From NCBI RefSeq assembly GCF_000205165.1, contig NZ_GL883869.1, positions 1 through 64,000 of the forward strand: a stretch of 64,000 nucleotides of DNA, written 5' to 3'. Positions 20,603-60,511 of the stretch are shown in pieces (positions within the stretch are counted from its first letter, which is position 1; every line of letters starts with the position of its first letter). Both the position numbers and the translations under genes were made by a program. The DNA is from Paraprevotella xylaniphila YIT 11841. GTDB taxonomy: Bacteria > Bacteroidota > Bacteroidia > Bacteroidales > Bacteroidaceae. The notes beneath the pieces were generated by a model, which was not told the origin of the DNA, did not search any database, and was given only the letters and a program-made list of their open reading frames with translations.

Positions 20603-20644
20603 GTTTTTCCGGTTTTCCTTAAAGTTTATATTCCGTAAACGTTG

Positions 20645-20706
20645 CAAATATATAGTTTTCACCCACAAACGAGCCTAAAAAACAACTCGAATTACATGCG
20701 ATGTAA
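20645..20706 (-). promoter_or_regulatory. exuT operon promoter -7 box and upstream dyad
   Basis: On the - strand, TATATTTG lies at 20652-20645, about 43 nt before the exuT ATG. A clear -33 box is not seen. Further upstream, TTACAT-GCG-ATGTAA (20692-20706) is a perfect 6-bp dyad that could bind a repressor or activator. Confidence 0.45.
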
Positions 20707-28049: not shown

Positions 28050-28081
28050 CTTATATCTAAATCATTAAACGCTTCTATATC

Positions 28082-28112
28082 CTAATACGATTGAAAACCG
28101 CAAAATACTGAC
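28082..28112 (-). promoter_or_regulatory. Conserved PUL element, copy D
   Basis: On the + strand CTAATACGATTGAAA, 5 nt, AAAATACTGAC; read toward the heparinase-type gene it becomes GTCAGTATTTT-N5-TTTCAATCGTATTAG, ending 33 nt before the start codon. It is one of five copies. No TAnnTTTG box was found beside it. Confidence 0.7.
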
Positions 28113-28138
28113 TCGAAAAGAAAAAAAATCAGTTTGGC

Positions 28139-28170
28139 GTAAGTGAATTGCCTTTCCCAATCGTATTAGG
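28139..28170 (+). promoter_or_regulatory. Conserved PUL element, copy E
   Basis: GTAAGTGAATT (28139-28149), 5 nt, then TCCCAATCGTATTAGG (28155-28170), 38 nt before the GH97 start codon. It is divergent from copy D; the two form a near-symmetrical arrangement (ATCCTAATACGATTG and CAATCGTATTAGGAT) over the shared intergenic region. Confidence 0.7.
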
Positions 28171-28207
28171 ATATGAACAAGGTTTTAAAAATCAAATTTT
28201 ACCATCA

Positions 28208-30130
28208 ATGAAAAAACAATTCATTTCTTTGTGCATGTTGTGGTTGGCCACCTCGGGATGGGCCTCGCCACACACTTACAAACTATGGTCGCCCGACCGC
28301 AATTACGAGTTCACCTTTACGCAAGAGGATTCGGACGGTGCAACCCGGCTGTCCTACACCTTATCATACAAGGGAAAAAAGATTATAGGGAAATCAGACC
28401 TGGGAGTAGACATAGAAAACAAATTATTGGAAAGTGCCCTCGACATTCCTAACGCCCCTTGCAAGCAGTGGGGCGACAACTTGGCTTTTATCGGGGTGGA
28501 TTCTGCCGAACACAAAGAGACATGGAAACCTTTATATGGCGAACGGGCAGAAATCCCAGACCATTACCGCAGCCTGTGTGTCAAGTTCAGGAAAGGAGAA
28601 GCCCCTTCGGAAAAAGCACCGGACGGTTATGACCGTTCCCGTACTTATTTCATGAACGTGGAAGTGAGGGCTTACAACGAAGGTGTGGCCTTCCGCTACC
28701 ACTTCCCCTCCACCACCAACGGGCTGTTCCTGCATATCACCAAGGAACTGACCGAATTTGCCATGCCCGAAGGCACCATGGCCTACTATGAACCGTGGGC
28801 ACAAGCCCCCATCACATTGCTGCCGCTAAAGGGATGGGACGGAGAAAGCGAACGCCCCTTGACCATGAAGCTGCCGGACGGATTGACCGTGTCCTTGGGC
28901 GAAGCCCGCATGCGCGATTATGTGCGTACCAAATTCGGACTTTCCCCCTCCCGGCCGAACACCGTCACGGCCAACATGTATGACTGCGCGGATGTCATCT
29001 CGCCCTACGATACGCCTTGGCGCGTCATCATGGCGGCAGAACGCCCCGTAGATTTGATTGCCCACAACCATATCTACCTGAACCTGAACGATCCCTGTGC
29101 GCTGCAAGGAGACCTTTCATGGATTAAACCCGGCAAGGCATTCCGCTGTGGGTTAAAACAAAAAGACGCGTTGGCGGCTGTGGATTTCGCAGCCGAACGA
29201 GGCCTGCAATACATAGAACTGGATGCCGGATGGTATGGGCCGGAGATGTTCATGAGCAGTGACGCCACAAAAGTGGCCGAAGGTAAGGATCTGGATTTCA
29301 AAGCGCTTTGCGACTATGCGGCCACAAAAGGCATCGGCGTATGGGTTTACGTGAACCAACGCGCCCTGATTCAACAATTAGACGACATACTTCCCCTTTA
29401 TAAAAAATGGGGCATCAAAGGCATCAAGTTCGGTTTCGTACAGGTGGGCAACCAGTTCTGGACCATCTGGTTGCATAACGCCGTACGCAAATGCGCGGAT
29501 TATGGCATCATGGTGGACATACATGACGAGTACCGCCCCACGGGATTGAGCCGCACCCTGCCCAACCTGATGACCCAGGAAGGCATAGCCGGTAACGAAA
29601 CCATGCCCGACGCACGGCACAACACCACCTTACCCTTCACGCGTTTCCTTGCCGGACCGGCAGACTACACGCCTTGTTACTTCAACAACCGGGTAAAAGC
29701 CACACACGGCCACCAATTGGCCATGCCTGTGGTGTATTACAGTCCCATCACTTTCCTCTATTGGTACGACACGCCCCAACTCTACCGAGGCGAAAAGGAA
29801 CTGGACTTCTGGAAACACGTACCGACCACATGGGACGAGACCTACCCGATAGACGGGCAAATCGGTGAGTACGTAGCCATCGCACGGCGCAGCGGACAAA
29901 AATGGTTTGTGGGAGTCATGAACGGTATGGACGCACGGACACTCTCGTTACCCACGGAGTTCCTGCAACGGGGAAAGAAGTATGTGGTGACACTTTACGA
30001 GGATGACCCTGATTTGGACACACGTACCAAGGTTGCCACCAGACAAAAGACCATCAAAGGCGGCCAGTCCCTCAAACTAGAATTGCAAGCTTCCGGCGGG
30101 GCGGCCATGGAAATAGAAAAAGCCCCATAA
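28208..30130 (+). CDS. GH97 family glycoside hydrolase (SusB-type fold)
   Basis: A 640-residue exported enzyme with signal peptide MKKQFISLCMLWLATSGWAS. It has the N-terminal GH97 super-sandwich (KLWSPDRNYEFTFTQ), the TIM barrel with YIELDAGWYGPEMF and MVDIHDEYRPTGLSRTLPN, and the small C-terminal beta domain. Known members are calcium-dependent alpha-glucosidases (inverting) or alpha-galactosidases (retaining, Asp nucleophile). The Asp residues 437 and 440 in VDIHDEY are candidates for the retaining type, but I cannot decide. The ATG at 28208 is chosen over 28148 because the longer frame would run through the regulatory element. Confidence 0.9.
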   Translation: MKKQFISLCMLWLATSGWASPHTYKLWSPDRNYEFTFTQEDSDGATRLSYTLSYKGKKIIGKSDLGVDIENKLLESALDIPNAPCKQWGDNLAFIGVDSAEHKETWKPLYGERAEIPDHYRSLCVKFRKGEAPSEKAPDGYDRSRTYFMNVEVRAYNEGVAFRYHFPSTTNGLFLHITKELTEFAMPEGTMAYYEPWAQAPITLLPLKGWDGESERPLTMKLPDGLTVSLGEARMRDYVRTKFGLSPSRPNTVTANMYDCADVISPYDTPWRVIMAAERPVDLIAHNHIYLNLNDPCALQGDLSWIKPGKAFRCGLKQKDALAAVDFAAERGLQYIELDAGWYGPEMFMSSDATKVAEGKDLDFKALCDYAATKGIGVWVYVNQRALIQQLDDILPLYKKWGIKGIKFGFVQVGNQFWTIWLHNAVRKCADYGIMVDIHDEYRPTGLSRTLPNLMTQEGIAGNETMPDARHNTTLPFTRFLAGPADYTPCYFNNRVKATHGHQLAMPVVYYSPITFLYWYDTPQLYRGEKELDFWKHVPTTWDETYPIDGQIGEYVAIARRSGQKWFVGVMNGMDARTLSLPTEFLQRGKKYVVTLYEDDPDLDTRTKVATRQKTIKGGQSLKLELQASGGAAMEIEKAP

Positions 30131-30160
30131 GAAGCATCCATTTTTTGCCAATACTAAAAA

Positions 30161-30188
30161 CCGGGGATGCCGTTCTTGGCATCCCCGG
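30161..30188. terminator. Bidirectional terminator between convergent genes
   Basis: Perfect 11-bp stem CCGGGGATGCC (30161-30171) and GGCATCCCCGG (30178-30188) with a 6-nt loop. On the - strand five T follow directly, so it mainly ends the 34078-30212 gene; it may also end the GH97 transcript. Confidence 0.75.
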
Positions 30189-30211
30189 AATATTTGTACT
30201 TGTTACCCTCG

Positions 30212-33200
30212 TCAATGTACCACAACCTTCTTACCATTTACAATGTAAATTCCCGGACGGGTAGGATTCGAAATGGCACGCCCCGAAAGGTCATAGGTTC
30301 CTTGCATTCCTTCAACCACCGTGTCTGCCTCCACATCATTGATGCCGGTCACATCATCTTCGGTCACGTTACTTCCGTAATAGAAAAGGCTAAAATTATC
30401 GAACACAATCCAGTCGGAAGGAACCACCTTGGTGTTTTTCAAGCCCACTTTCATGTCTTCTACATCTTTCTTGATTTCTACGACAAGCGTATTGTCGTAA
30501 AGATGTTCCTCCATATAATCGACAGCTGCGGCCACATTATTAGGGATATACAAATCCTGCGTCAAGACCTGAGAAGCCGTTCCCAACTTTTTCTCTTGTC
30601 CTCCTGCCATGATATTGTTAATCAGGGAAGACTTGTTATATAAATAAACAGCTGCGGCCACGTTGTCAATGCCGGAAACATAATCCTTACCGACTTGGGA
30701 ATAGGCACCCGGACGTTCAAAACCCTGTACCCCGACACGATACACCCCTTTGGGCATTTGTTTCAACGTCTGATACATGTCGAACGTCGAAGAAGTATTG
30801 CACAGCCCGTTCGTGAAAAGAAGCACGTCGGCTTGAGCGCATTCCCAACCATCGAGGCTTTCCATACCGGCATTGTCAATCAGGAAAGAGAGGTCGTAGG
30901 CCGACAGGTTGTCAAGCACCGTGTTCGCCATGAACGAAGTGATGCCCGTGTACATCTCGCGGATGGCACCATCCAGTTCTTCTACGGTTGTAAGCTTGTC
31001 CACTGCCGCTTCCATCTTTTGGGTCAAGGCCGTGAAGCTACCGGAAGCATCGTCCGTGGCATCATGATGCGGAACGTCCATCATCTCCTTGGCACCGGCC
31101 ACATAACGGCGCAGCTTCTCACGGTTCAAAGCCACTTTACCTTCGTCCACCAAACGCAACTGGTCGGCCGTGAGGATGACCCAACGTTGGTTGGCTGCCG
31201 CATTACTGAAATCCTGCGAAGAAGCCGTCTTTATCTCTCCGTCTGCCTCGGCCTGCAATGCCGGAGGAGTCTCAATCCTACGCTTGCCTTCGCATATCCA
31301 ATACCCCTTGGTATTAATGGAATGTTCACCCGCTCCCAAAATAACCGGAACACGGCCTCTCATCAGGTGGAAACTTTCATTCTCTCCGGGTTCGGCCACT
31401 TCGGCGGTCTTGATGGTACCGCTTTTGAAAGTAAAATACTTACCCGACTTGGCATTGCGCAACAGGTAATAGCATGTCTGGGGTTGGAATACAAGATACC
31501 AGGCGTAGGCATCGTCACCAACCAATTCGTCCGTAGAAACAGCACGATAAGCCAACGTGCCGTCCGCATTCTCTGTCAGGTAAGCCGTTCCGCGTCCGTA
31601 AGCCTCATCTTCGTTCGTGATATAGTATTTGACATCATCCTCGCTCTCGAATATATAATAAGGAGTGGGCGAACCACCGGAAGGAGGCAAGCCGTCTACC
31701 CCCAGTCCAAACGTCTGCAAGGCATTGGCGATATAAAGCAAACGCGTGCCATTGTCCGCACCGGCTCCGTTGATGCCGAAAGGCCCCATGTGCATGCCAT
31801 CACCGTTACACAAATCCTGTCCGTTGGTCAAAAACTCCACAATAAGGTTGGCCAAGTCACCTTGCCACCATACACCGGACTGGATTTTAGGCATTTTGGT
31901 GGGATACAAACCCTGCCACTTGGTAGATGCCTTGAGTTCTTCATACCACCAACGTCCGTGTTGACCTACTCCCACACCATGATTGGATTCATGCATTACC
32001 GTTCCAGTGCGTTGGTATGCAGGGTTAGGTCCTACCGACATCCATCCCCCATAACTACATTCTGCCGTCGGAGTGCCGGCACCAAAAGACACTGTAATCC
32101 CATAATCCCGTATGCTCGTCCATTTGTTGTAGTAATCCATCGCCTCGCGACACGCATTACTAATCCGTTCGTTATCTGCCGGTTCCCCATTGTTGGCATA
32201 ACTCCAAGTACAGTTCCCCATGGGAAGCGTTATGATTTTGCGCACTTCACCGTATCCCACAGCATTACCCTGTGTCATGGCAAAAGCACGTACATAATAT
32301 ACTGTGGCCGGTTCCAAAGGTTCCATGATATAAATGAGACCGGGATAGTTCAACACTTGCTCCCCTTCGGTCACATAATTGTCTGCCAAAGTCGGTTCTT
32401 TGTGGGTGGCCCAACAATAGCCCTGCAACTTGATGTCCTTCTCTTCCATGCCATTCACGGTGACACGTCCCAAAGCTCCGACGGCACCACGGGGAATGAA
32501 ACTCGATGTCACCACCCCCGGCACATCACCCGAAGGATTGGCCGCATAATACAGCAATTCTGCTTGAGCCAACTCCTTGACCAACAATTCTATTTCTTCC
32601 CTTGTACTCTTGGCCGCCTTGTAAAGCCCGTCAGCCTTGTCGATGGCCGCCTTCAGCCCGTCCGCGCCGTTAGCCAATCCTTCGGCAAGCACCTTCTCCG
32701 ACTTTTGGATGGCTTCCAAGAAGAAAGCATAATCCCCCACACTGGTTTGCGAGGCATTGATTGCCGCACGCAAAACGGCTGCATAACCCGCGATGTCTTC
32801 CACCTCAGTCACAGCCTTGGCTTCTTTCACGGCCTTCGTCAGCGCGGCAAGACTGTCGGCATGCTGGTAGGAAGCGAGCAACGCTTCTCCTTCCTGTATC
32901 ATCTGCTTGAACTCCGCAAACTGGACATCGGCATCGAATCCCGTATAATAAATATGGAAATCATCAAAAGCCACTTTGTCTCCGGTACATCCTATTGTGT
33001 TCACTCCTATTTGAGCCTGATTGTCCACTACCACGAAATCGAGCGTGTACTGAGCTGTTCGGTTCAGTTCTTTCTTCGCATTGTTGGCATACACATAAGC
33101 ACCACTCTGTACAATGGCCGGATTACTTTCCAGAATGTTTTGAGCCGACAATGTAAGCCGGTAGTTCCCGTTGGGCAATTCTACAAACTGGTAGATGTCA

Positions 33201-34078
33201 GCATCCGGCACTTTTGCCCCACCATTCCAAATCTCACAATAATAGGAACCGCTCTTCAGCACAAAAACGTCATTGCCTTGGGTGCCGAACCCAGTAGACA
33301 CCCATCCCTTGGTATCGTCCTCAAAATCTGGATTCAACATATTGGAAGTCATTTCCAACGGTTCTTCGGGTGAAGCCAACGCAAGCCGGTAATTATAAAT
33401 GGCAGCCTTCAATGCAGCATACACCTCGGTCACATCCTTAGTAGAAGTCCCGTCTACCACAGCTTTCCCGTCAGCCAAAGCGGCATCGAGCACTTTCTGT
33501 TCGGGTGTGTCAAGATGCTTGTCGATACTCTCGGCTTCTGTGATAAGTTTGCCCACCTCTTCACGAAAAACTTCATAAGTCTCTTCCGTTGGTTCTTCAA
33601 GAGTCAAGTGAAAATCATCCACACATACGTAATTCCCCGTTGCCCCTTGTACAAGGAGACCAATCTCCAATGTACCATCTACCGTCGTAGTCTTCACGTC
33701 ATATTTTCCCGGCAAATTAATTTCGGTTTTGTCGTCATTGGCATACAACCACACCCCTGTCTGTTTGGCATCGGCATCATTCTGTTGGATGTTCTGCGCG
33801 ACCACGCTCACCGTATAAGTACCCGCAGGCAAATCGGTTAACACCTGCTCGACACTGCCATCCGCCACCCGGCTTCCGGCTCCACTCCAGGTCTCGACAT
33901 AATAATCGCCCACCTTCAAAGGGAAGTCGCTATTTCCTTGGCGTCCCATCCTACTGATTTCCCAACCGGTAGCTTCCTCCTCGAAGCCGGGATTGACAAT
34001 GCGCTCCGTCATGTCCGTCTGTGCATGCAGCGACAAGGCCACGCACATGAAGAGAGATAGAAAGAATTGTTTTTTCAT
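30212..34078 (-). CDS. Giant exported multidomain protein with zincin-like HESNH motif
   Basis: A 1,288-residue protein with signal peptide MKKQFFLSLFMCVALSLHA. Two similar N-terminal jelly-roll modules (NPGFEEEATGWE near residue 29 and NPDFEDDTKGW near residue 250, each ending in VDDFHLT or FDDFHIY) are separated by helical linkers with coiled-coil character. A fibronectin-like segment follows, then a probable metallopeptidase core: M695-H696-E697-S-N-H700-GVGVG-Q-H707, which is HExxH plus a third His at a spacing one residue longer than the classical metzincin motif. After a further carbohydrate-module-like region the C terminus is YDLSGRAISNPTRPGIYIVNGKKVVVH, a sorting-type tail. It may cut glycoproteins or host or dietary protein attached to the glycan; this is inference. 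Confidence 0.65.
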   Translation of the reverse strand: MKKQFFLSLFMCVALSLHAQTDMTERIVNPGFEEEATGWEISRMGRQGNSDFPLKVGDYYVETWSGAGSRVADGSVEQVLTDLPAGTYTVSVVAQNIQQNDADAKQTGVWLYANDDKTEINLPGKYDVKTTTVDGTLEIGLLVQGATGNYVCVDDFHLTLEEPTEETYEVFREEVGKLITEAESIDKHLDTPEQKVLDAALADGKAVVDGTSTKDVTEVYAALKAAIYNYRLALASPEEPLEMTSNMLNPDFEDDTKGWVSTGFGTQGNDVFVLKSGSYYCEIWNGGAKVPDADIYQFVELPNGNYRLTLSAQNILESNPAIVQSGAYVYANNAKKELNRTAQYTLDFVVVDNQAQIGVNTIGCTGDKVAFDDFHIYYTGFDADVQFAEFKQMIQEGEALLASYQHADSLAALTKAVKEAKAVTEVEDIAGYAAVLRAAINASQTSVGDYAFFLEAIQKSEKVLAEGLANGADGLKAAIDKADGLYKAAKSTREEIELLVKELAQAELLYYAANPSGDVPGVVTSSFIPRGAVGALGRVTVNGMEEKDIKLQGYCWATHKEPTLADNYVTEGEQVLNYPGLIYIMEPLEPATVYYVRAFAMTQGNAVGYGEVRKIITLPMGNCTWSYANNGEPADNERISNACREAMDYYNKWTSIRDYGITVSFGAGTPTAECSYGGWMSVGPNPAYQRTGTVMHESNHGVGVGQHGRWWYEELKASTKWQGLYPTKMPKIQSGVWWQGDLANLIVEFLTNGQDLCNGDGMHMGPFGINGAGADNGTRLLYIANALQTFGLGVDGLPPSGGSPTPYYIFESEDDVKYYITNEDEAYGRGTAYLTENADGTLAYRAVSTDELVGDDAYAWYLVFQPQTCYYLLRNAKSGKYFTFKSGTIKTAEVAEPGENESFHLMRGRVPVILGAGEHSINTKGYWICEGKRRIETPPALQAEADGEIKTASSQDFSNAAANQRWVILTADQLRLVDEGKVALNREKLRRYVAGAKEMMDVPHHDATDDASGSFTALTQKMEAAVDKLTTVEELDGAIREMYTGITSFMANTVLDNLSAYDLSFLIDNAGMESLDGWECAQADVLLFTNGLCNTSSTFDMYQTLKQMPKGVYRVGVQGFERPGAYSQVGKDYVSGIDNVAAAVYLYNKSSLINNIMAGGQEKKLGTASQVLTQDLYIPNNVAAAVDYMEEHLYDNTLVVEIKKDVEDMKVGLKNTKVVPSDWIVFDNFSLFYYGSNVTEDDVTGINDVEADTVVEGMQGTYDLSGRAISNPTRPGIYIVNGKKVVVH

Positions 34079-34163
34079 TGTGGTTAATTTTAAAAATTAG
34101 AAATCAAGATAATTATTGGTGCTCCTTCTCATTTTGATAAAAGAAACCGGATTACCTTGTTAC

Positions 34164-34171
34164 AAAGGTAA
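34164..34171 (-). promoter_or_regulatory. -7 box upstream of the zincin-like gene
   Basis: TACCTTTG on the - strand (34171-34164), about 86 nt before the start codon. A convincing -33 box is not seen. This gene lacks the 31-bp PUL element. Confidence 0.4.
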
Positions 34172-34239
34172 GGGAAAGCCTCAACCAATACATTGAATTA
34201 TATCGACAAAGAATAGCACTTTACCACCCATTCTTACAT

Positions 34240-36143: not shown

Positions 36144-36181
36144 ATCATATCTTTTATTTACTGTTCCACAAATTCCGTACC

Positions 36182-38779
36182 TCATGGCAAAACCAACTTT
36201 TTACCGTCCACCACATAGATTCCGCCCGGCAAGGCCACGCGCCAATCCGGCCCGGAGGTATCCACCGGCACGCGAGTACCGTCTATACGGTAAACGGCAG
36301 GAGAACCTTCACATTCCATTGATATGCGAGGCACAGTAAGAGGAGTATCTTTCAAATCCTCACCATAGCGTGCCATCAACTCTTCCAAGGTATAAAAGCC
36401 AATGTCATCTATTCTCGTGTCTTTATACAGCGACTCTCCATTCACGGCAAAGCACAAACCTTTCAATGTGTAAGCCTCCACGCCTTCCGCATAGCAATCC
36501 CCCAATAAAGGCTCGATACGGCGGTTGGCAGAAGAATCCAACTGCCAGACGAACAACTGTTCGTCTCCGCCCGCTCCGCATCCTTTCACGGAATAGGTTG
36601 CCGCCTGCCCGCTCGTACTGGCCTTCGTCTCGTCATCCATTCCTCCGGGTAACCGATAGGTTGCTTCTTGGAACGCCACCATGTTCAAGTTCACACCATG
36701 GATAGCCAAGTACAATTTATCCGAAGTTATATGATATGCCATAGGTTCGCCCACCACGGTAAAAGTCGGTACAAGTTCACTTGCATAACGATTGGAAACC
36801 AAAAGTTTGTCACTCTGGTCTGTCAGAATTTCCCCTTTCCCTATAGGAGTAGAATAATCACGGGAGTTCCACACATAATCGGTTTCTTCCGAAGGACGGG
36901 CTGTCTCCTCCACACGGATAGAACGCAGACGGACTGCATTATCCGTTCCTTTTACGGTCATACGCAACACACTGGCACCCGCACGAAGCCTCAACACACC
37001 TAACTCATGTTCTTGGAATCCTTGTCCCACAGGCAATTCGCCCCCAACAGCCGTGCCATTATCCACTGCGGCATACAGTGCGCCTCCAACTACCGACACC
37101 TCAGCATCGGCCCAAATGCGATAATACCCGTCTTTGGCTACGGTAAAACTATAGTTCATCCATTCACCATCTTCCATCCCGGTTACGACATAGCTATCGC
37201 CTACCGTTTCTATTTCCACGGTACCGTCCGTACGATACAACTTACATTTTTCCGTGCCTTTGTCATGGTAAGTCAGCCCTTCACCGTTTGCGGCCAAACT
37301 ATAGAAGTCATAATCCACGGCCCGTATCGTTCCAGGCAAGGCCGGAAGCCCAGACACATGCCGACCATCCACAAACGTCCCGCCATCTCCGGCCATCCAA
37401 ACCGTACGGTAATCCAACAAACCTCCGGGCATGCTGCCATCCTCCGCCTTCTTCACATCGAAAGCACGCTGTACCCAAAGCAAACTATCTGCCGGTAATC
37501 CCATACGTACCTTATATTGCATCCACATCGTACCGGGACTGTGAAACTGCTTCCCTCTCGTCCAATCCGTTTGGTTTCCTTCCGACCATGGATTGATTTT
37601 CAGGCCCTCCCAACGGGCACAACGCGCCATGCGGCGGATGAATTGCCCATTCTCCACCGTTGGCTCAAAAAGTTCTTCTTCCGGCCAATACTTGTTCTTC
37701 ATCTGTTCACGGTTATACCAACCGTAGTTGTACTTGGCTGCATAAGTGATGCCCTGCAAGATTCGCCCGCCGTAGGCAGAAAACACGTCATCGCCTTGGT
37801 TCCATGCCGTACGGGCAATGTCCACCATATTACACATGCCGTCCATGATATGCCCTTGGTCACGCGAAGCCTCCTGACACTGGCCGTTCTCCCAAATCCA
37901 ATACTTCAACTCATCGTCATAACCATAGTCTTTCTCCTCGCCCACCGTAATCTTGCTTGCGTCATATAAGATATAGTATTCATCATTCACGTGTGACTGA
38001 ACACCGTGCGGTATTTTCGGCCCTTTAGGATAAGGCAGGTCATCCTGACGATGGGACAGACTCAACAATTTTCGGTAAGCCCGCTCGTAAATGGTATCGT
38101 TGTCCAAATAGATACCCATGGCCATCAGGGTACGCAAACCATACAAGCCTTGGTTGCCATGTCGTCCCGGATCACCTTGAAAAATATTCCAATACACCGT
38201 CACACGGTTTTCCAACGTGTCGGATGAGGAGTATTTGGCATAATAATCTTCCACTGTACTATATCCGGGACTCACCAGGAAATCCTTGAACCCCTGTTGG
38301 TCTTCGGGTTTCCATCCCTCATAATCACGCAATAATTCGGCAGCCTCAATGAGCATGGTAGCCTTGGAAGCATCCAAGCAATTCGTCCCATAAGGTTTAA
38401 TACTACGTACGGGAGCATAGCGGTTCAGCACGGCCACGGCTTTGTCCGCATAGGACGTTTCATCCGTCAGCTTCCACATCATGGCATTATGGAAAGCCAC
38501 CTGTCCGAACTCATCCAACCACAAATTAGGATTATCCCAAATGACAGGCTGCCCTTCGTGGACAGGCAAAGGACGTTCATAGTCACGATAAGTCGTGTAA
38601 CGGCTTTCCTTGAATTCAAGGAAAGCCGAATAATAAGGTTCTTGACCGACATCCACCATGGCCCGCATCCTGTCGATGTCAGCCTGTGTATAGGATATGC
38701 CGGGATGCTTAAACACACGCTGCTGCCCCATGGCATTCAGTCCGGCCAGGCAAACGCACAATAATATCATCTTTTTCAT
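36182..38779 (-). CDS. Alginate_lyase-type (PF05426-like) exported enzyme with CBM-like and sorting domains
   Basis: An 865-residue protein; the start is set at the ATG at 38779, 7 nt after a clear GGAGG, giving signal peptide MKKMILLCVCLAGLNAMG. Residues to about 480 form the helical lyase-type domain (HNAMMWKLTDETSYADKAV, GRHGNQGLYGLRTLMAMG, QEASRDQGHIMDGM) and are a paralogue of the broken gene downstream. A CBM6-like sandwich follows (GEWMNYSFTVAKDGYYRIWA). The last 60 residues include YRIDGTRVPVD and GGIYVVDGKKLVLP, a sorting-type tail. It starts 13 nt after susD. Families with this fold (for example PL5, PL17 N-domain, PL38) cut alginate or glucuronan; the substrate here is not known. 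Confidence 0.78.
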   Translation of the reverse strand: MKKMILLCVCLAGLNAMGQQRVFKHPGISYTQADIDRMRAMVDVGQEPYYSAFLEFKESRYTTYRDYERPLPVHEGQPVIWDNPNLWLDEFGQVAFHNAMMWKLTDETSYADKAVAVLNRYAPVRSIKPYGTNCLDASKATMLIEAAELLRDYEGWKPEDQQGFKDFLVSPGYSTVEDYYAKYSSSDTLENRVTVYWNIFQGDPGRHGNQGLYGLRTLMAMGIYLDNDTIYERAYRKLLSLSHRQDDLPYPKGPKIPHGVQSHVNDEYYILYDASKITVGEEKDYGYDDELKYWIWENGQCQEASRDQGHIMDGMCNMVDIARTAWNQGDDVFSAYGGRILQGITYAAKYNYGWYNREQMKNKYWPEEELFEPTVENGQFIRRMARCARWEGLKINPWSEGNQTDWTRGKQFHSPGTMWMQYKVRMGLPADSLLWVQRAFDVKKAEDGSMPGGLLDYRTVWMAGDGGTFVDGRHVSGLPALPGTIRAVDYDFYSLAANGEGLTYHDKGTEKCKLYRTDGTVEIETVGDSYVVTGMEDGEWMNYSFTVAKDGYYRIWADAEVSVVGGALYAAVDNGTAVGGELPVGQGFQEHELGVLRLRAGASVLRMTVKGTDNAVRLRSIRVEETARPSEETDYVWNSRDYSTPIGKGEILTDQSDKLLVSNRYASELVPTFTVVGEPMAYHITSDKLYLAIHGVNLNMVAFQEATYRLPGGMDDETKASTSGQAATYSVKGCGAGGDEQLFVWQLDSSANRRIEPLLGDCYAEGVEAYTLKGLCFAVNGESLYKDTRIDDIGFYTLEELMARYGEDLKDTPLTVPRISMECEGSPAVYRIDGTRVPVDTSGPDWRVALPGGIYVVDGKKLVLP

Positions 38780-38792
38780 ACATCCTCCTTTT

Positions 38793-40517: not shown

Positions 40518-40522
40518 GGTTT

Positions 40523-43618: not shown

Positions 43619-43622
43619 CGCA

Positions 43623-45254: not shown

Positions 45255-45272
45255 GATGTCCTTCATTTGGAA

Positions 45273-46889: not shown

Positions 46890-46902
46890 TTCCGTTTTTT
46901 AA

Positions 46903-50193: not shown

Positions 50194-50215
50194 TGCATTG
50201 CTGTTTAAGGTCATT

Positions 50216-52702: not shown

Positions 52703-52726
52703 GATACGGTAATATTTGTTTCCTTT

Positions 52727-54718
52727 TTAATGTGTATCTTCACTCTCTATCAGGTTAGTCGGCATGAACTCGATATAATCCAGATGGCAGTTGCCATTGA
52801 GCATCTGCACGAAACGGAATTCATGCGTGGAAGTCTCCGGCCAACTGAAAATCCCCAATACCTTGCGCATCTCGAAAGGATCGTTACGGGTGGAACCTTT
52901 TATCCCGCCGCTTTGCCCCATCATCAATTCACGCGAACAGAAGCTGTCCGGTCCTTTCATGAATCCACGGTTGTGCATGCTCTTGTCATTCTCGTAACCG
53001 TATGGGTCGTCTTCGCGGGAACCTTCATCCCACCATGCCCCGGAATTGTCCTGTGTAAACTGCCACACCTGTTCCCAACCGATGGAAGCGTCCGTTCCCT
53101 TCAGCCGCATGTCGATAGGGATGCCGCAAGGCTCGTCGTCCAGATAGAATTGCGTGATGCCACGCGTGGCCGCATCCACACGATAACCGATGCGCACTTC
53201 ATAACTTCCTGCCGGCACCGGCCCCACGGTAATGGACGCATCGAACATGCCCCAGATTTCGAGATAATCCCCAAGGAAGAAACTGTGCATGTTGGAACCT
53301 ATATACTTGGCAAATATCGTACTGCTTTCCTCGAACTTGAAATTCTTACAATACCCTTGCGGCACATAATAATCCTTGTTGGAGATGACATCGTTGTTAC
53401 GGAGTTCCGGCGTAAAGATGGTGAAGTCCATGCGGATACGCTTGCCACGCATGATACGCCCTATCTTATCCTCATCATACACCAACATGCCGGTAAGCGC
53501 ATGGATGACCCCGTTCTGGCAATCCAGATTACTATGCGCCATATCCAATGTCACCACATCGTCTTCTTCCTCTGCCATATTCGTATATTTCGCGTCATAA
53601 CAGTTGCGTTCATCGTTGAATACGGGCTTCTGCGCATCTTGGTCTCCCCATTTGAACGCCTGTACCGTGATAATAGTCTGGTCAGCCATAGGCACCAGAT
53701 ATTGTTCCAACCAAAACGAACCGTCACGATAGTTCTCGCGCAACCAGTCCGCATCAATCCAGGTGTGGGTCATCACATAATCCCGCGTGTTTACGATTTG
53801 GTTGGAAGTCAGCATCACCGGCAACAGGTGGTAGGCCACAAAACGGTAAAGGCTGCTGCGCTCATCCGTGTCCGGCAAATCCTTCCCTTCGGGGAAGTAC
53901 GTCCGGGCATAAGCCCGCATGTCTTCCAAAGACCGGATACCGTTCAAGGCCAACACGGAATCCGTTTCCAATAAAGCCGTATAACGGTAATTCTTAGTCT
54001 TGGGGAAATTCGCGCTACCCGAATAAGGGTCGTCTGCCGGTTTGGATGTAGCGGGAACATAAGTCTCATCGTCCAAAAGCGTCAGGGCATCCCGTAACCC
54101 GGTAGCATGCAGGGCCTCACCATACAGTTTGAAATGCCCCTCAGACTCGATGTAATCGGCCACCAAGTCCGTATTGCCGGCCAACGCCTTGTCCACCACA
54201 TGCACCACGCCATTCACTTTAATATGGTCGCCCGACACGATACGCGCCGTATTGTTGACCATCCAAGAGGCACCGTCAGACGCAATGGAGGTGTACAAAT
54301 AACGCCCCAACATGTTTTTCGTCTCGATGGCACCGGACTCGAACCCCGCTGTCTCATAATAAGGCACGCCATTGGCCTCACCGTCTATCAAATGGTAAAA
54401 CACCATCTCTTTGACCGCCTCCACGGAGTCCAAGAAGTTGTCGAACGTGCCATACCCTTGTTCCGAAGCATAAGCTTCCATCGCCTCATTGTCCGGCACG
54501 AAACAAGTATACGCCCCGTACGATTCCAACAAGGAGAAAGCCCCCGCCACCCTCAACGCCTCCGCAAAATCGGAATATTCCGCGTTGTTTTCCACAAAGT
54601 CACCGATGGTCTCTCCCGTAAACGTCGTGTAGTTCTCTCCCACGTCGTCCGAGTCTTGACAGGCGGTAAAACCAGCTAGGACCATAACCGCGATACATGA
54701 CAAAAACTTAAGCCTCAT
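52727..54718 (-). CDS. FAS1-domain lipoprotein, tandem paralogue A
   Basis: A 663-residue lipoprotein (Cys20 in GFTACQDSDDVGENY). Two FAS1 domains: the first with YTCFVPDNEAMEAY and HIKVNGVVHVVDKALAG, the second ending in CQNGVIHALTGMLVYDED. The C-terminal 230 residues form a beta-rich module (GMFDASITVGPVPAGSYEVRIGYR, GIPIDMRLKGTDASIGW) found elsewhere with FAS1 lipoproteins. It is a close paralogue of the next upstream gene, with an 86-bp identical stretch. Element copy C lies 72 nt before its start. Confidence 0.82.
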   Translation of the reverse strand: MRLKFLSCIAVMVLAGFTACQDSDDVGENYTTFTGETIGDFVENNAEYSDFAEALRVAGAFSLLESYGAYTCFVPDNEAMEAYASEQGYGTFDNFLDSVEAVKEMVFYHLIDGEANGVPYYETAGFESGAIETKNMLGRYLYTSIASDGASWMVNNTARIVSGDHIKVNGVVHVVDKALAGNTDLVADYIESEGHFKLYGEALHATGLRDALTLLDDETYVPATSKPADDPYSGSANFPKTKNYRYTALLETDSVLALNGIRSLEDMRAYARTYFPEGKDLPDTDERSSLYRFVAYHLLPVMLTSNQIVNTRDYVMTHTWIDADWLRENYRDGSFWLEQYLVPMADQTIITVQAFKWGDQDAQKPVFNDERNCYDAKYTNMAEEEDDVVTLDMAHSNLDCQNGVIHALTGMLVYDEDKIGRIMRGKRIRMDFTIFTPELRNNDVISNKDYYVPQGYCKNFKFEESSTIFAKYIGSNMHSFFLGDYLEIWGMFDASITVGPVPAGSYEVRIGYRVDAATRGITQFYLDDEPCGIPIDMRLKGTDASIGWEQVWQFTQDNSGAWWDEGSREDDPYGYENDKSMHNRGFMKGPDSFCSRELMMGQSGGIKGSTRNDPFEMRKVLGIFSWPETSTHEFRFVQMLNGNCHLDYIEFMPTNLIESEDTH

Positions 54719-54789
54719 AACTTATATTCTTTTATCTTCTTCATTTATTCATTCCCAACGGAAAGGGTTGTTCTATCCCCTTCTATACC

Positions 54790-54820
54790 CTACTACGATT
54801 GGGATTTTTAAAATACCTAC
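54790..54820 (-). promoter_or_regulatory. Conserved PUL element, copy C
   Basis: Read toward the gene: GTAGGTATTTT-N5-TCCCAATCGTAGTAG, followed by GGTATAGAAGGGGATAGAAC. The last block is also found after copy B, as expected if the leader was duplicated together with the gene. Confidence 0.72.
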
Positions 54821-54849
54821 AAGAAGCTTAAAAAAAATACTTTTTCCCG

Positions 54850-56847
54850 TCAATGCGTATCTTCATCCTCTAACAGGTTGGTCGGAATGAACTCGATGTA
54901 GTCGAAATGACAACTTCCGTCCAACATTTGTACCACACGGAATTCGTGCGTCGCCATTTCCGGCCAACTGAAAATCCCCAAGACTTTACGCAAAGCATAC
55001 GGGTCGTTACGGGCTGAAGCCTTCACTCCTCCGGTCACACCTGAAATCAGCAGTTCCTTGGACCCGAAACTATCCGGAGCTTTCATAAAGTTACGGTTAT
55101 GGAGGCTTTTGTCATTTTCATAGCCATAATAGTCATCCGGATTTCCTTCCCCCCAACTGCCGATATAGGGATTGTTGACCTGTGTGTACACGTATGCCTG
55201 TTCCCAACCGATAGAAGCATCAGTTCCTTTCAAGCGCATGTCAATAGGTATACCGCAGGGCACACCATCGAAATAAAACTGCGTGATACCGCGATGGTTC
55301 GTGTTTACACGATAACCGATACGAACTTCGTAACTTCCTTCCGGTATCGGCCCGACGGTAATAGACACATCGAACATGCCCCACATCTCCATAAAATCAT
55401 GCAAGTAGTCGCTGTGCATGTTGTCCCCTACATATTTTGCAAAGACATTGCTGCTTTCCTCGTATCGCAATTTCTTGCAATACCCCTCAGGTATATAATA
55501 ACATTTGTTAGAAATAATATCGTTGTTACGAAGCTCAGGAAAGAACGTAGTGAAATCCATACGGAAACGCTTGCCACGCATAATGCGTCCTATCTTATCC
55601 TTGTCATACACCAACATGCCGGTAAGCGCATGGATGACCCCGTTCTGGCAATCCAGATTACTATGCGCCATATCCAATGTCACCACATCTTCCTCTTCTT
55701 CGGCCATATTCGTATATTTCGGGTCATAACAGTTGCGTTCATCATTGAACACCGGTTTTTGAGCCGGTTGGTCACCCCATTGGAATGCTTGCACCGTAAT
55801 AATCGACTCGTCTGCCATAGGTACCAAATACTGCTCCAACCAGAAACGTCCGTCACGGTAATTCTCGCGCCGCCAGTCTTCGTCCATCCAAGTCTGCGTT
55901 ATCACCAAATCCCGTGTATTCACAATTTGATTGGAAGTCAGCATCACCGGTAAGAGATGATAACCTACAAAACGGCTGAGACTGCTGCGCTTGTCATCAT
56001 CCGGCAAATCTGCCCCTTCGGGATAATACCGTTCTGCATATTCCCGCATGTCGTCCAAAGTATGGATCCCGTTCAAAGCCAACACGGAGTCTGTCTCCAA
56101 TAAGGCTGTATAACGGAATTTCTTAGCTGCGGGGAAATAACAAGTAGAAGAATAGGGGTCGTTAGACGGTTTGGTCGTAGCCTGTACATAAGTCTCATCG
56201 TCCAAAAGCATCAATGAATCCCGCCATCCGGTAGCATGCAAAGCCTCGCCATACAGTTTGAAATGCCCTTCCGACTCGATATAATCGGCCAACAAATCCG
56301 TGTTACCGGCCAGGACTTTGTCTACCAAATGCACCACGCCGTTCACTTTTATATGATCCCCCGAAATGATGCGTGCCGTACTGTTGATCATCCAAGCCGC
56401 CCCGTCAGGCGCAATGGAGGTGTACAAATAACGCCCCAACATGTTTTTCGTCTCAATGGCACCGTTCTCAAACCCGGCCGTTTCATAGTTGCCCACGCCT
56501 CCGCTTTCGCCGTCAATCAAATGGTAGAACACCATCTCCTTGACCGCCTCCACGGAGTCCAAGAAATGTTCGAACGTCCCATAACCTTGTTCTCTCACGT
56601 AAGCTTCCATCGCCTCATTGTCCGGCACGAAACAAGTGTATGCTCCGTACGACTCCAACAAAGAGAAAGCATTGGCCGTTTTCAAGGCTTCCGTAAAATC
56701 GGAATACTCCGCATTATTCTCCAGAAAATCACTGATGGTTTCTCCGGTGAACGTCGTGTAATTCTCTCCCACGTCATCCGAATCCTGACAGGCGGTAAAA
56801 CCAGTCAGCACCATAACCGCGATACATGACAAATACTTAAACCTCAT
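54850..56847 (-). CDS. FAS1-domain lipoprotein, tandem paralogue B
   Basis: A 665-residue lipoprotein starting MRFKYLSCIAVMVLTGFTAC, the same start as paralogue A; the frame is open eight codons further (56871), but in paralogue A the matching upstream frame is closed by a TGA, so 56847 is chosen. The same two FAS1 domains and C-terminal beta-rich module are present, with many conservative changes. It is the first gene of the long - strand PUL operon, led by element copy B. Confidence 0.82.
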   Translation of the reverse strand: MRFKYLSCIAVMVLTGFTACQDSDDVGENYTTFTGETISDFLENNAEYSDFTEALKTANAFSLLESYGAYTCFVPDNEAMEAYVREQGYGTFEHFLDSVEAVKEMVFYHLIDGESGGVGNYETAGFENGAIETKNMLGRYLYTSIAPDGAAWMINSTARIISGDHIKVNGVVHLVDKVLAGNTDLLADYIESEGHFKLYGEALHATGWRDSLMLLDDETYVQATTKPSNDPYSSTCYFPAAKKFRYTALLETDSVLALNGIHTLDDMREYAERYYPEGADLPDDDKRSSLSRFVGYHLLPVMLTSNQIVNTRDLVITQTWMDEDWRRENYRDGRFWLEQYLVPMADESIITVQAFQWGDQPAQKPVFNDERNCYDPKYTNMAEEEEDVVTLDMAHSNLDCQNGVIHALTGMLVYDKDKIGRIMRGKRFRMDFTTFFPELRNNDIISNKCYYIPEGYCKKLRYEESSNVFAKYVGDNMHSDYLHDFMEMWGMFDVSITVGPIPEGSYEVRIGYRVNTNHRGITQFYFDGVPCGIPIDMRLKGTDASIGWEQAYVYTQVNNPYIGSWGEGNPDDYYGYENDKSLHNRNFMKAPDSFGSKELLISGVTGGVKASARNDPYALRKVLGIFSWPEMATHEFRVVQMLDGSCHFDYIEFIPTNLLEDEDTH

Positions 56848-56916
56848 AACTTTATTTTTTATTTTCTTCATTTATTCATTCCCTACGGAAAGGGCTGTTC
56901 TATCCCCTTCTATACC

Positions 56917-56947
56917 CTACTACGATTGGGAATAAGAAAATACCTAC
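56917..56947 (-). promoter_or_regulatory. Conserved PUL element, copy B
   Basis: Read toward the gene: GTAGGTATTTT-N5-TCCCAATCGTAGTAG, 70 nt before ATG 56847. It heads the FAS1-SusC-SusD operon and is divergent from the toxin-antitoxin promoter. Confidence 0.74.
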
Positions 56948-56984
56948 GCCAAACAAAAAAATCATATTACCAAACCACAAGACA

Positions 56985-57016
56985 CTTGCCATTCAAAAAA
57001 TGTTTTGCTACCTTTG
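56985..57016 (+). promoter_or_regulatory. Promoter of the toxin-antitoxin pair
   Basis: CTTG at 56985-56988, 20-nt spacer, -7 box TACCTTTG at 57009-57016, 34 nt before the antitoxin ATG at 57051. Confidence 0.65.
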
Positions 57017-57050
57017 CTTTCTAGCACTTAGGAAGAAAACGAATACTATT

Positions 57051-57233
57051 ATGGAAAAGAAAAACAGGAAACCATCCATGCGGACAAACAGCCAAGAGGC
57101 CATCGAACTGCTTACAAAAATAAAAAACAGCGGAGGTAAAAGGAAATTCAACAAGTTGGGCGAATGGCTCTCACAAAACCCCGAACCTCTATTTACATGG
57201 GATGAGAAAGATTTGAAATACATATTGAAATGA
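57051..57233 (+). CDS. Putative antitoxin partner of the PIN toxin
   Basis: A 60-residue basic protein (MEKKNRKPSMRTNSQEAIE then LLTKIKNSGGKRKFNKLGEW). Its length, gene order and the ATGA overlap with the following PIN-domain gene point to an antitoxin, but it has no recognised DNA-binding fold; the segment ending in FTWDEKDLKYILK could wrap the toxin. The start at 57051 is chosen because the upstream in-frame ATG (57000) precedes the -7 box. Confidence 0.6.
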   Translation: MEKKNRKPSMRTNSQEAIELLTKIKNSGGKRKFNKLGEWLSQNPEPLFTWDEKDLKYILK

Positions 57234-57661
57234 GAGCATACCTCGATACAAATATCCTTGCCTTTATGGTCGGACAAGATAACGGGGCTTCTATAAGCGA
57301 TGATGTCAAGGCTATCATCAAAGATTATGAAACATTGCTCTTCTCAAGTTCCGTATGCTTTGCTGAACTCGTGCATCTTATACAAATAGGAAAGGTGCGC
57401 ATTCCTGAATGCAAAGACATACGCCGTGCAGCAAATGTAGCACTGCAAAGGTTAAGCGAATTAGGTATTAACATGGTCGCAACTTCAGGCACACACATAG
57501 ACACATTGGTTGATTTGCCTTTATATGATGACCACCGAGACCCAAACGACCGGATGATAATTGCGCAAGCGATTTCTGACCGTATACCTCTTGTCAGCTC
57601 CGACAGGAAGTTCTCACGCTATGAACGTTACGGGCTTGATTTCATATACAACGAAAGATAA
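57230..57661 (+). CDS. PIN-domain protein, VapC-like toxin
   Basis: A 143-residue putative Mg-dependent ribonuclease. The PIN acidic residues are visible: Asp6 (YLDTNIL), Glu46 (CFAELVHL), Asp107 (DPNDRMIIAQA) and Asp125 (LVSSDRKF). This is the size and layout of type II toxins such as VapC. It overlaps the small upstream gene by 4 nt. The pair is on the + strand within a - strand PUL and is closed by a strong bidirectional terminator, so it looks like an inserted module. Confidence 0.85.
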   Translation: MRAYLDTNILAFMVGQDNGASISDDVKAIIKDYETLLFSSSVCFAELVHLIQIGKVRIPECKDIRRAANVALQRLSELGINMVATSGTHIDTLVDLPLYDDHRDPNDRMIIAQAISDRIPLVSSDRKFSRYERYGLDFIYNER

Positions 57662-57719
57662 CGATAACACTACCGGCATGACATGCGGATAAAAAATCAT
57701 TTTGTCCGTTTTATCCAAT

Positions 57720-57753
57720 AAATCCGCGCCTCTTGTCAAAAAGGCGCGGATTT
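57720..57753. terminator. Bidirectional terminator
   Basis: Perfect 12-bp stem AAATCCGCGCCT (57720-57731) and AGGCGCGGATTT (57742-57753) with a 10-nt loop. It separates the + strand toxin from the convergent - strand surface protein gene. Confidence 0.75.
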
Positions 57754-57811
57754 ATCTGTTTCCCGGCTCCGGCTCTTACCGGACAAGGACTAACCTAACC
57801 GGACTTGCATA

Positions 57812-60430
57812 TCAACGTACGATGACTTTCTTCACTGCCGCTCCGGCACGTACGATATAGATACCCGGACGGACGGTTTCATGCACCGTGCCCTCGAACT
57901 CGGACACGCAAGTGCCGTCAACCGTATAAATTGCACCAGATTCCGAAGTGAAGACGTTGATGGTGCGCCCCGTCACGAAGACCTTCAAGTCACCGCCATC
58001 GGCCTGCACGTCGCGCACGCCTGTGGCAAAGCTCTCGGATGGAATATCGTCCACAGTCTCGTAGGTACGGATCCAGTCGATGTAAAGCGCATCGCCTTGT
58101 TGGAAGCCCTGTGTGCTCATATATTGGCTTACATAATTGGTCTTTCCCACGCTGACATAACGCAACAAGTCCCAATAATACACATCACCCTTCATTTCCG
58201 CATCTGACAAATTTAAAGCAAATTCCGAATTCAAACCGTTCACTTGCTGAAGGAAATTAAACTTATCCACCGTAATCTCCGGGTTCGTACCCTTGCACTT
58301 CATGGCAATATAACGGCGTACGCCCGGGTTGAGGCTAATCATACAGGACTCGTCACGCACTCCGCCTTCAGGGTCACGGTCATAGAAGTTCGTGAACACG
58401 CCACCTTCACGGCGCATGGACGGACTGGTCGGATAAGTAGTCACATTGCCCAAAGACGTTCCGTCGAACGAATCGTATGTATCAGCCGCCGTCAGTTTCA
58501 GACACTGCAAATCTTCACCCTCTGCATCCTTATAAGTATCCTTGTTCACACGCGACCACATGCGCCAACGTTGCATACGCCAACCGTCCAACATGAAGGT
58601 CTGGCCGTGTTCGCCCATCACAAGTTCCGCACCGTTGATAGTCCCCTTGGTGCCCGGGTCGTCTTCTGCCTCTCCATTGAACTCCCAAGCCTCGAACAGC
58701 CCGGTCTTCTCGTCGTCCGAAGGAACATAGCTCGACAAGGCATCCTCTATCTGGAACAAATAAGGCTGCATACCTTCGTAATCCGTATCCGGGAATTCAT
58801 CTACCGTCTTCAACTCATAACCGGACTTATAATAATAGTATGAACCACATTTCATATCGAACAGTCCGAAACCGTCACGGTCGGCAAAGGTAAAGGAGGC
58901 CGCATCGCTTGCACCGTTCACCAAAAGCAAAGTCCCGTCAGTGCATTGCACCACCACGCCATCCTTGCCTTTCAGGTTATATGTGACCAAACCGTTGTTT
59001 TCGCCAACGGGCACAAAAGTTAAAGGCATGGCACTCTCGTTAGCACCCAAAGCCAAAGGACGTCCGGTATAACTGTCTTTCGTCACTTCATCAGACAAGG
59101 CATACAAAGAAACGGAACCGTCAGAAGTACGGATATAATTATATACCAAATCCTCAGTCGGGTTTACGAATGAATAGAACTCGGCTACGGCGGCATTCAC
59201 CTCTTCAATAGCGGCCAAATACTCTTCTGTCGTGGCATCCACCTTGTTGTAGACCCCGTCTGCCTTCGCATGTATTTCCTTCAAAGACGCATAGGCATTG
59301 TCAGCATCCCCCATGTAGTTCTGGAAACCTTTAATAACCTTTTCCGCTTCCCACAGCACAGTGTTCAGCACGTCCTTTTGAGGGTTTACCTTCTCACCAT
59401 CGCCCCAATTATTTTCAGCCGTCAGGCTTTCTTTGAATTCGGCCATGGAACGGAACGTCTTGAGCCACTTGATGTCTACATACGGCATGTCCTCCTTGTT
59501 CTTCGGGTCTGCCGAAACGATGGAACTGGGATTTTCCGCATCATAAATGATATTCTTCAATGTATCTGCCCGACAGATATAGCACAAATAAATGCTTTGG
59601 AGCTTAAAGCTGCCCAAACGCTCCAACAAACGCATGCTTTCCAAGCGTTCTGCGGTGGCAGTGTCCTTGATGGCCGCAAAGTTCCATGCCATAACGACAT
59701 CCGACTTGTCTTCATCGAACGACACGGGAATACGATGCGCCAAATATGTCGTGTCTTCCTTTTTGGCTTGTTTGTCGCCATTCGCCAATATAGCCCAAGT
59801 GGAATCGGGCGTTCCCGTGAGCCTGTTCCAGTCTCCATTATATTTGAGTTCCAAAGAATCGCGGCCAAGCGCGTCTTTTTCTCCCCAAGCAAACTGGCAA
59901 GCAAAGATGTCCATGGATTTCTGATTGAATCCCCACATTCCGCCATACGCGTCCCCGAAGTTCTCCTTGACGCTTGTACCTCCCTCATAAGGGCTGTACC
60001 ATCTCATTTCAACCCAAAAAGAACCTTTGTCTTTTGTACCGCCTTCGGCCTTGCTTTCCGAGTTCTTGATGGTGGAAGCTTTTAAGGCAAGGACAGGGAA
60101 GGCCGGGGTTATCGTCATAAGTCCCTCACCGGCAATCTTTTCCTTGATATCGAAACGATTACGCATCAAGAACCCACCTTTTTCGGGTTCATAATTCGTA
60201 TTATGCACTCCCAAATAAGACCTGATGTAATCACCGTCTACCACATAACTCCTCCGGTAATCTTCATTCTTCACCGCTGCACCTTCGTTACCGAACTCCA
60301 TTTTCGCACCAATTTCCAACTGGGCAGGTGTCCAATTGTAATAACCGTTCACGCCATGGATTTGTCGTTGAGCCACTGCCGTTCCAACATAGCATAACAA
60401 CGAGAACCCTAGTAAATGTCCTAAATTCAT
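57812..60430 (-). CDS. Large exported surface protein of unknown function with sorting-type tail
   Basis: An 872-residue protein with signal peptide MNLGHLLGFSLLCYVGTAVA. The first 350 residues form a beta-rich domain ending in VDIKWLKTFRSMAEFKES; a helical linker (NAYASLKEIHAKADGVYNKV) and an RICIN-like stretch follow; a second beta-rich domain ends in YIDWIRTYETVDDIPSES. The W-x-K/R-T-F/Y motif recurs in the broken lyase-type gene, so this may be a shared glycan-binding module. The C-terminal 70 residues carry a tail with IYTVDGTCVSEF and RPGIYIVRAG. Element copy A precedes the gene. Confidence 0.6.
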   Translation of the reverse strand: MNLGHLLGFSLLCYVGTAVAQRQIHGVNGYYNWTPAQLEIGAKMEFGNEGAAVKNEDYRRSYVVDGDYIRSYLGVHNTNYEPEKGGFLMRNRFDIKEKIAGEGLMTITPAFPVLALKASTIKNSESKAEGGTKDKGSFWVEMRWYSPYEGGTSVKENFGDAYGGMWGFNQKSMDIFACQFAWGEKDALGRDSLELKYNGDWNRLTGTPDSTWAILANGDKQAKKEDTTYLAHRIPVSFDEDKSDVVMAWNFAAIKDTATAERLESMRLLERLGSFKLQSIYLCYICRADTLKNIIYDAENPSSIVSADPKNKEDMPYVDIKWLKTFRSMAEFKESLTAENNWGDGEKVNPQKDVLNTVLWEAEKVIKGFQNYMGDADNAYASLKEIHAKADGVYNKVDATTEEYLAAIEEVNAAVAEFYSFVNPTEDLVYNYIRTSDGSVSLYALSDEVTKDSYTGRPLALGANESAMPLTFVPVGENNGLVTYNLKGKDGVVVQCTDGTLLLVNGASDAASFTFADRDGFGLFDMKCGSYYYYKSGYELKTVDEFPDTDYEGMQPYLFQIEDALSSYVPSDDEKTGLFEAWEFNGEAEDDPGTKGTINGAELVMGEHGQTFMLDGWRMQRWRMWSRVNKDTYKDAEGEDLQCLKLTAADTYDSFDGTSLGNVTTYPTSPSMRREGGVFTNFYDRDPEGGVRDESCMISLNPGVRRYIAMKCKGTNPEITVDKFNFLQQVNGLNSEFALNLSDAEMKGDVYYWDLLRYVSVGKTNYVSQYMSTQGFQQGDALYIDWIRTYETVDDIPSESFATGVRDVQADGGDLKVFVTGRTINVFTSESGAIYTVDGTCVSEFEGTVHETVRPGIYIVRAGAAVKKVIVR

Positions 60431-60480
60431 AAAAACAAAAATTTAAAGTTAAACCATAATTTTATAACTTCTCCTATTTC

Positions 60481-60511
60481 CTACTACGATTGGGAACGAG
60501 AAAATACCTAC
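60481..60511 (-). promoter_or_regulatory. Conserved PUL element, copy A
   Basis: Read toward the gene: GTAGGTATTTT-N5-TCCCAATCGTAGTAG, 50 nt before the start of the 60430 gene. Only the 5-nt spacer and the flanks differ from copies B and C. Confidence 0.74.

Follow-up and report, generated by a model that had tools for sequence, protein, structure and literature searches.

We analyzed a 64,000-nucleotide stretch of the Paraprevotella xylaniphila YIT 11841 genome (positions 1 to 64,000 of contig NZ_GL883869.1, here C65), called the window below, in which a 31-bp element recurs five times upstream of genes of a polysaccharide utilization locus (PUL). Judged from sequence comparison, the element is most probably a promoter of an extracytoplasmic function (ECF) sigma factor, and we lean towards a 174-aa ECF protein encoded 5.5 kb beyond the window end as its main reader. 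The putative -35 block would read (G)T-N2-GT-(A/T)TT and the -10 block CGTA(T/G)TA, with exactly 17 bp from GT to CGTA. By analogy with ECF promoters in general, the transcription start is expected ~7 nt beyond CGTA, about where the closing TAGG block of the element ends. The original prediction, made from the window alone, had offered both an ECF promoter with two blocks ~17 nt apart and an activator operator overlapping a weak promoter. The former option is favored by the presence of an ECF gene on the same contig, by a conserved array of sites in the locus of the closest sigma orthologue (genome G013), by the enrichment of sites at exactly 17 nt near sigma relatives, and by the short distance from CGTA to the start codon.

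The repeated element in the window

A direct check of the window sequence found all five copies where the original prediction had placed them. The 13-base core CAATCGTANTAGG has five exact matches in the window and none in 100 dinucleotide shuffles, and a 32-base pattern with up to three mismatches returned the same five sites only (chance mean 0.01). Furthermore, a search of the whole genome (3.79 Mb, 87 contigs), which had been proposed as a check, restricted the exact core to these five sites of the polysaccharide locus; this confinement speaks against a genome-wide regulon over many unrelated genes. With one mismatch, 10 further matches appear compared with 8 for a backwards-read control, which is no clear excess. 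Another candidate, at 36822 on the + strand of the window, lies inside the open reading frame (ORF) of another gene that is encoded on the opposite strand. It scored 21.8 with a matrix built from the five copies and just 12.0 with a 12-site matrix, inside the shuffle range (best shuffles 13-17), and it lacks CGTA; it was rejected.

Comparison of the sites in this genome and in its relatives reduces the constrained part of the element to T-N2-GT-N17-CGTA, which resembles a -35/-10 pair. The consensus proposed at the outset fits four of the five copies exactly and the + strand copy at 28139 with one mismatch. Its CAATCGTA-N-TAGG portion outside CGTA is mostly variable among the relatives and does not belong to the constant part. 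Sequence similarity among the sites spans ~41 bp, beyond the 31 bp of the element.

For the heparinase II/III-like lyase gene (25770..28049, - strand; Pfam PF07940, Hepar_II_III_C), the putative ECF-type promoter occupies 28072..28112 on the - strand, with the -35 block at 28103-28112 and CGTA at 28086-28089, 36 nt from the ATG. Divergent to it, the putative promoter of the GH97 gene (28208..30130, + strand, ATG at 28208; PF10566/PF14508/PF14509) lies at 28139..28179 on the + strand (-35 block 28139-28148, CGTA 28162-28165), and the distance is 42 nt. Two paralogous Fasciclin (FAS1) genes on the - strand (PF02469) each carry a putative promoter on the same strand: 54780..54820 for the gene at 52727..54718 (-35 block 54811-54820, CGTA 54794-54797, 75 nt to ATG) and 56907..56947 for the gene at 54850..56871 (-35 block 56938-56947, CGTA 56921-56924, 49 nt). 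Finally, the gene of an 872-aa protein (57812..60430, - strand) is preceded by a putative promoter at 60471..60511 on the - strand (-35 block 60502-60511, CGTA 60485-60488, 54 nt); the protein has no Pfam match, and its start looks like a signal peptide by eye. The original prediction had reported no canonical box beside the copies; indeed, no exact TAnnTTTG, the canonical Bacteroides sigma-ABfr box, occurs between element and ATG in any of the five, and the copy at 60511 has three one-mismatch boxes in this interval. The promoter at 54780..54820 may also drive the same-strand SusC/SusD genes downstream.

Sites in related genomes and beside sigma relatives

The search for the sigma factor covered 100 relatives besides P. 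xylaniphila. The closest orthologue, in G013, is 60% identical, and the adjacent G013 regulator is 68% identical to its counterpart. Sites were sought with a matrix from the five copies, then with a 12-site model from the P. xylaniphila and G013 sites, and then with a 20-site model. In the syntenic locus of G013, the 5-copy matrix revealed five clear sites (scores 24-36) and a weak one (13.9; one shuffled window reached 12.5), each upstream of a same-strand gene; a weak site in P. xylaniphila, at 75534, scored 13.8. In all 12 sites, T2, G5, T6, C24, G25, T26, and A27 are kept. With the 12-site model, P. xylaniphila yielded the six known sites and, outside the training set, C5:159 (expectation value, E, 2e-5), the next best match having E 0.16. 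In G013, the same model gave the six sites and, with E 0.007 and 0.92, two divergent sites that precede the counterparts of the lyase and GH97 genes. These two ranked in rows 7 and 10 of 12, the latter below two matches elsewhere, and they bring the sites in the syntenic locus to eight.

The counterparts of the lyase promoter lie at 388288-388328 in G013 and at 293830-293870 in G002, a member of the same genus, and those of the GH97 promoter lie at 388355 in G013 (the E 0.92 site) and at 293803 in G002, before a GH97 remnant. Both G002 sites retain the constant letters. The G013 counterparts of the sites at 54780..54820, 56907..56947, and 60471..60511 lie at 418663-418703, 420758-420798, and 423467-423507, respectively. 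In these three pairs, the blocks are identical at 8-10 of 10-11 positions, compared with 2-5 of 11 for the spacer and 7-12 of 30 for the upstream flank. The sites in G002 comprise C1:293803, 293830, 299432, and 287143 (E 0.03), C11:35403 and C11:31290 (E 0.04), and C3:32387 (E 0.25); further sites are C5:1364 in P. xylaniphila (E 0.10) and C25:6459 in G008 (E 0.02). Several of them (C3:32387, C5:1364, C11:31290, 287143, and the G008 site) are weak, with E from 0.25 to 0.02, and for G002 299432, G002 C11:35403, and the G008 site the first detection came from a pattern in which the constant letters were fixed beforehand. Among 18 genus members, only P. xylaniphila, G013, and G002 have at least four matches at E≤0.05. 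The earlier proposal that the element joins distant genes in one regulon stands only in part. Clear sites are found in this locus and on contig C5, where the locus probably continues; the truly distant candidates in P. xylaniphila, C53:1816 before a transglutaminase-like protein and C82:162449 before an alginate-lyase/LamG protein, are weak.

Some observations on individual matches can be added. On G002 C1, an apparent deletion (293274-293810) has fused the beginning of the ECF coding sequence, a few codons long, to GH97 at around codon 50. Seven sites (P. xylaniphila C5:158 and 75534, G013 445414 and 452312, G002 299432 and C11:35363, and G008 6419) share a ~100-nt leader after the promoter (GTTAGTTAATATTGAAATTAGGTTAATGTG...), before different genes; an alignment covered six of them. 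An Rfam search of 1500 bases of C5 containing this leader gave no match to it, and one sub-threshold match elsewhere was taken as chance. A look-alike promoter (TAGTTT...CGTATATACATA) is common to P. xylaniphila C61:43797 and G013 C17:19313, before a similar short reading frame, and possibly belongs to another ECF of related specificity. The matches at P. xylaniphila C81:75621 and G013 C41:23087 were dropped because they are antisense inside a regulator gene. Besides those in P. xylaniphila, G013, G002, and G008, a G045 match (C64:18406) likewise sits shortly before an ORF. The pattern TAAGTANTT-N13-CGTA was rejected as an order-wide general promoter. Many examined loci lie inside ORFs, and the pattern matches in 32 of 150 genomes, with 48 matches listed compared with ~156 for a backwards-read control, which holds ATG-like letters and is a poor control.

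Beyond the genus, the spacing was examined in 28 neighborhoods of 29-41% sigma relatives, some shortened by contig ends, using 607 regions upstream of ORFs of at least 150 aa. The pattern T..GT-N17-CGTA was chosen post hoc, after weak matches near the ECF gene and a dyad in G048; the comparisons among spacers and with control stretches were not post hoc. The dyad occurs in 62 of the 607 regions, and each of the other 19 spacers occurs in 1-11 (mean 5.8). Removal of near-copies, which stem from near-identical loci in the sample, leaves 40 distinct sites. At least one site is found in 22 of the 28 neighborhoods, and at least two in 15. Seven genomes supplied the controls, 20 stretches each 20 kb long; in these genomes, 26 of 151 regions near the sigma gene carry the dyad compared with 1 of 253 elsewhere (Fisher 3e-11), and it is absent from the 78 regions of the seven control stretches that hold a SusC relative. 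Moreover, the tetramer after TGAGT-N17 in the neighborhoods of these seven genomes is CGTA 20 times and no other more than twice. By a crude signal-peptide rule, the genes of 56 of the 62 sites are positive, compared with 366 of all 607.

The neighboring regulators and competing explanations

The ECF sigma gene lies at 69493-70014 on the - strand of C65; its product contains Sigma70_r2 and r4 domains, and Sigma70_r2 has 15 matches genome-wide, this protein included. Divergent from it, a regulator gene (70332-73223, + strand) encodes a 963-aa protein with a propeller (Reg_prop, SGL) and an AraC-type helix-turn-helix domain (HTH_18). Besides an N-terminal stretch, this protein has a membrane-helix-like stretch near residue 750, and no Pfam match to a kinase or receiver domain was found in it. 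In 24 of the 31 ECF loci examined, the ECF gene has a regulator relative no more than 1.2 kb away (with a broken frame in G125), and the unbroken counterparts measure 873-986 aa. Between the two genes, TAnnTTTG boxes in both directions are present in P. xylaniphila, in G013, and in the G002 remnant, as is an imperfect inverted repeat of the AGTCCGT-N9-ACGGACT type (C65 70180), a candidate operator. These boxes and the shared repeat point to an order of control in which the AraC protein would act on the ECF gene, and the sigma factor in turn on the locus. In the proposed cascade, the propeller/AraC protein would sense a glycan fragment and activate the ECF gene from a housekeeping-type TAnnTTTG promoter, and the sigma factor would then direct polymerase to the arrayed sites of the polysaccharide locus. 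We consider it reasonably likely that this is a widespread family module, in which a membrane propeller/AraC sensor lacking a kinase turns on transcription of a neighboring, anti-sigma-free ECF that reads T(A/G)AGT-N17-CGTA before individual genes of the locus.

The distance from CGTA to an in-frame ATG has a median of 33 nt (55 of 62 sites with an ATG found), and because CGTA is so near the start codon, a separate downstream promoter hardly fits. TAnnTTTG lies between CGTA and ATG in 4 of 44 family sites, a count without an equal-length control. With such a control, the box is found within 60 nt downstream at 3 of 45 distinct sites compared with 45 of 253 control regions, which weakens its depletion as a strong argument. 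The main argument for a promoter is therefore the lack of room, and the missing box is a weak second.

Several observations weigh against an ECF promoter read by the C65 sigma. In G002, the local ECF gene is apparently lost along with most of GH97 and the DNA between the two, with only its first codons left, adjoining the truncated GH97 gene; nevertheless, four sites are kept at the homologous locus and three elsewhere. A 38-40% ECF on G002 contig C3 may serve these sites. Similarly, G008 has one site (E 0.022) and neither a close ECF nor a close regulator relative. Six of the 28 neighborhoods (G030_C5, G083, G125, G203a, G203b, and G045) have no site, even though G045 and G125 hold 41% and 40% sigma relatives, respectively. 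The region-based count also misses sites, as it gives 0 of 38 regions for G002 C1, where the model finds four. An R2 search of 24 family genomes gave about background, with a few weak matches close to the ECF gene. In four of seven counterpart pairs, those of the lyase and GH97 promoters between P. xylaniphila and G013 or G002, conservation of the blocks exceeds that of the spacer slightly or not at all. Furthermore, TAnnTTTG is not strikingly rarer at the sites than in the equal-length controls, and in a wider interval it is as common (13 of 45 versus 64 of 253, with unequal lengths). The A/T content upstream of the sites is just slightly raised (0.71 versus 0.65). Finally, the two blocks are mildly alike, as in a direct repeat of 20-bp period, a form that AraC-type operators can take; their similarity is 0.57, where 95% of 500 column permutations stay below 0.53.

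This repeat could mean that the element is an operator of the propeller/AraC regulator, with two direct half-sites, and that the regulator activates a weak housekeeping promoter which overlaps or follows the element. The available text of PMC3878776 describes the predicted operators of hybrid two-component systems (HTCSs) as direct repeats in which 5-9 bp separate two sites of 12-16 bp; their period is similar to that of the element. Such an operator would also suit the close linkage of regulator and ECF genes, as well as the three genus members with site arrays, which keep a 60-100% regulator while one of them seems to lack the local ECF. We nonetheless regard it as quite unlikely, given the little room before the ATG and the rarity of boxes there. 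In addition, G323 carries two sites, and the stretch examined there, on which the sigma gene lies at a contig end, holds no regulator relative; G434 and G030_C1 contribute a single site each, not above possible background. Conversely, G034 has a regulator relative and no ECF relative in 40 kb, and its 20 upstream regions, a small sample, carry no site. The inverted repeat between the regulator genes (AGTC.G.-N9-ACGGACT) offers another operator candidate.

If the element is an ECF promoter, its main reader may still be another of the 15 sigma-70-type genes, or several ECFs may share this promoter class. The sites retained in G002 and G008 without a close orthologue point in this direction, and so do the distant look-alikes at C53:1816, C82:162449, and C61:43797 with its G013 counterpart. 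On the other hand, with the 12-site model C65 and C5 hold every P. xylaniphila match at E<0.01 (C53 reaches E 0.008 with the 20-site model), and the family-wide sites cluster beside relatives of the C65 sigma. On this evidence, either alternative appears unlikely. Recent duplication of upstream regions, with no regulatory role, is a highly improbable origin of the copies. The two FAS1 copies do share downstream leader sequence, and the four poorly resolved counterpart pairs would fit a duplication, but the blocks are better kept than spacer and flank in the three FAS1/872-aa pairs, and the dyad precedes different genes in many genomes.

Known systems and the surrounding locus

ECF sigma factors are abundant in Bacteroides PULs, where PUL-linked ECF/FecR-type anti-sigma systems signal across the envelope via SusC. 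The module resembles these systems in that its ECF gene lies beside a SusC/SusD locus and its best NCBIfam match is TIGR02985 (Sig70_bacteroi1), at 97.1 bits, below the curated cut-off of 126.4. In contrast, no FecR anti-sigma factor was found among the scanned locus proteins, with short ORFs partly outside the scan, and neither of the two SusC proteins in the window has an STN domain, only Plug and carboxypeptidase-regulatory domains; the partner here is a propeller/AraC membrane regulator. With HTCSs, the regulator shares the Reg_prop propeller, one membrane-helix-like stretch, and the AraC helix-turn-helix; it differs in its length of 963 aa and in having no kinase or receiver match.

The Bacillus subtilis SigW-type promoter is TGAAAC-N16-CGTA. 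The element is similar in its CGTA -10 core and 16-17 nt spacing, and it differs in its T(A/G)AGT-like -35 block. As described in the accessible parts of PMC7366714 and PMC12596196, promoter motif 2 of B. thetaiotaomicron is a non-canonical two-block motif proposed for ECF sigmas, as the element is here; near-palindromic form, TGTT near -10, and a tie to oxidative stress are peculiar to motif 2. According to the available portion of PMC8999054, HrpL and SigE of Streptomyces coelicolor are ECFs switched on transcriptionally by other systems. The proposed cascade would be alike in that an ECF without an anti-sigma factor is turned on by another signaling protein; it differs in that a polysaccharide locus is controlled and that a one-component propeller/AraC protein replaces HrpRS or a two-component system.

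We regard the module as a variation on known PUL control. In the literature searched, whose coverage leaves out most subscription papers, we recognized no description of the module or its consensus. The accessible text of PMC3878776 calls the prediction of PUL ECF promoters a challenging task that needs start-site data, and that of PMC7366714 states that, as of 2020, a motif was known for no B. thetaiotaomicron ECF. If the proposal is true, it would add to the HTCS, SusR-like, and ECF/anti-sigma systems a further PUL switch whose promoter code can be read, and would point to a sensor-to-sigma cascade without an anti-sigma factor. The consensus with its fixed 17-nt spacer could be searched in genomes, so that PUL regulons of this sigma subfamily would be readable from sequence, and it would offer inducible orthogonal promoters.

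According to Pfam, the locus further contains two SusC/SusD pairs, alginate-lyase-type proteins, and GH30, GH28, and GH127 genes. The adjoining window positions 15675-20668 encode a glucuronate isomerase, a mannonate dehydratase, a short-chain dehydrogenase, and a sugar transporter, which suggests a uronate-containing glycan. By synteny with G013, the locus likely runs on from the end of C65 (77622) to the start of C5 (1), although no sequence overlap between the two contig ends was found. The genes flanking this junction resemble GlnN, AmtB, and GlnK by eye.

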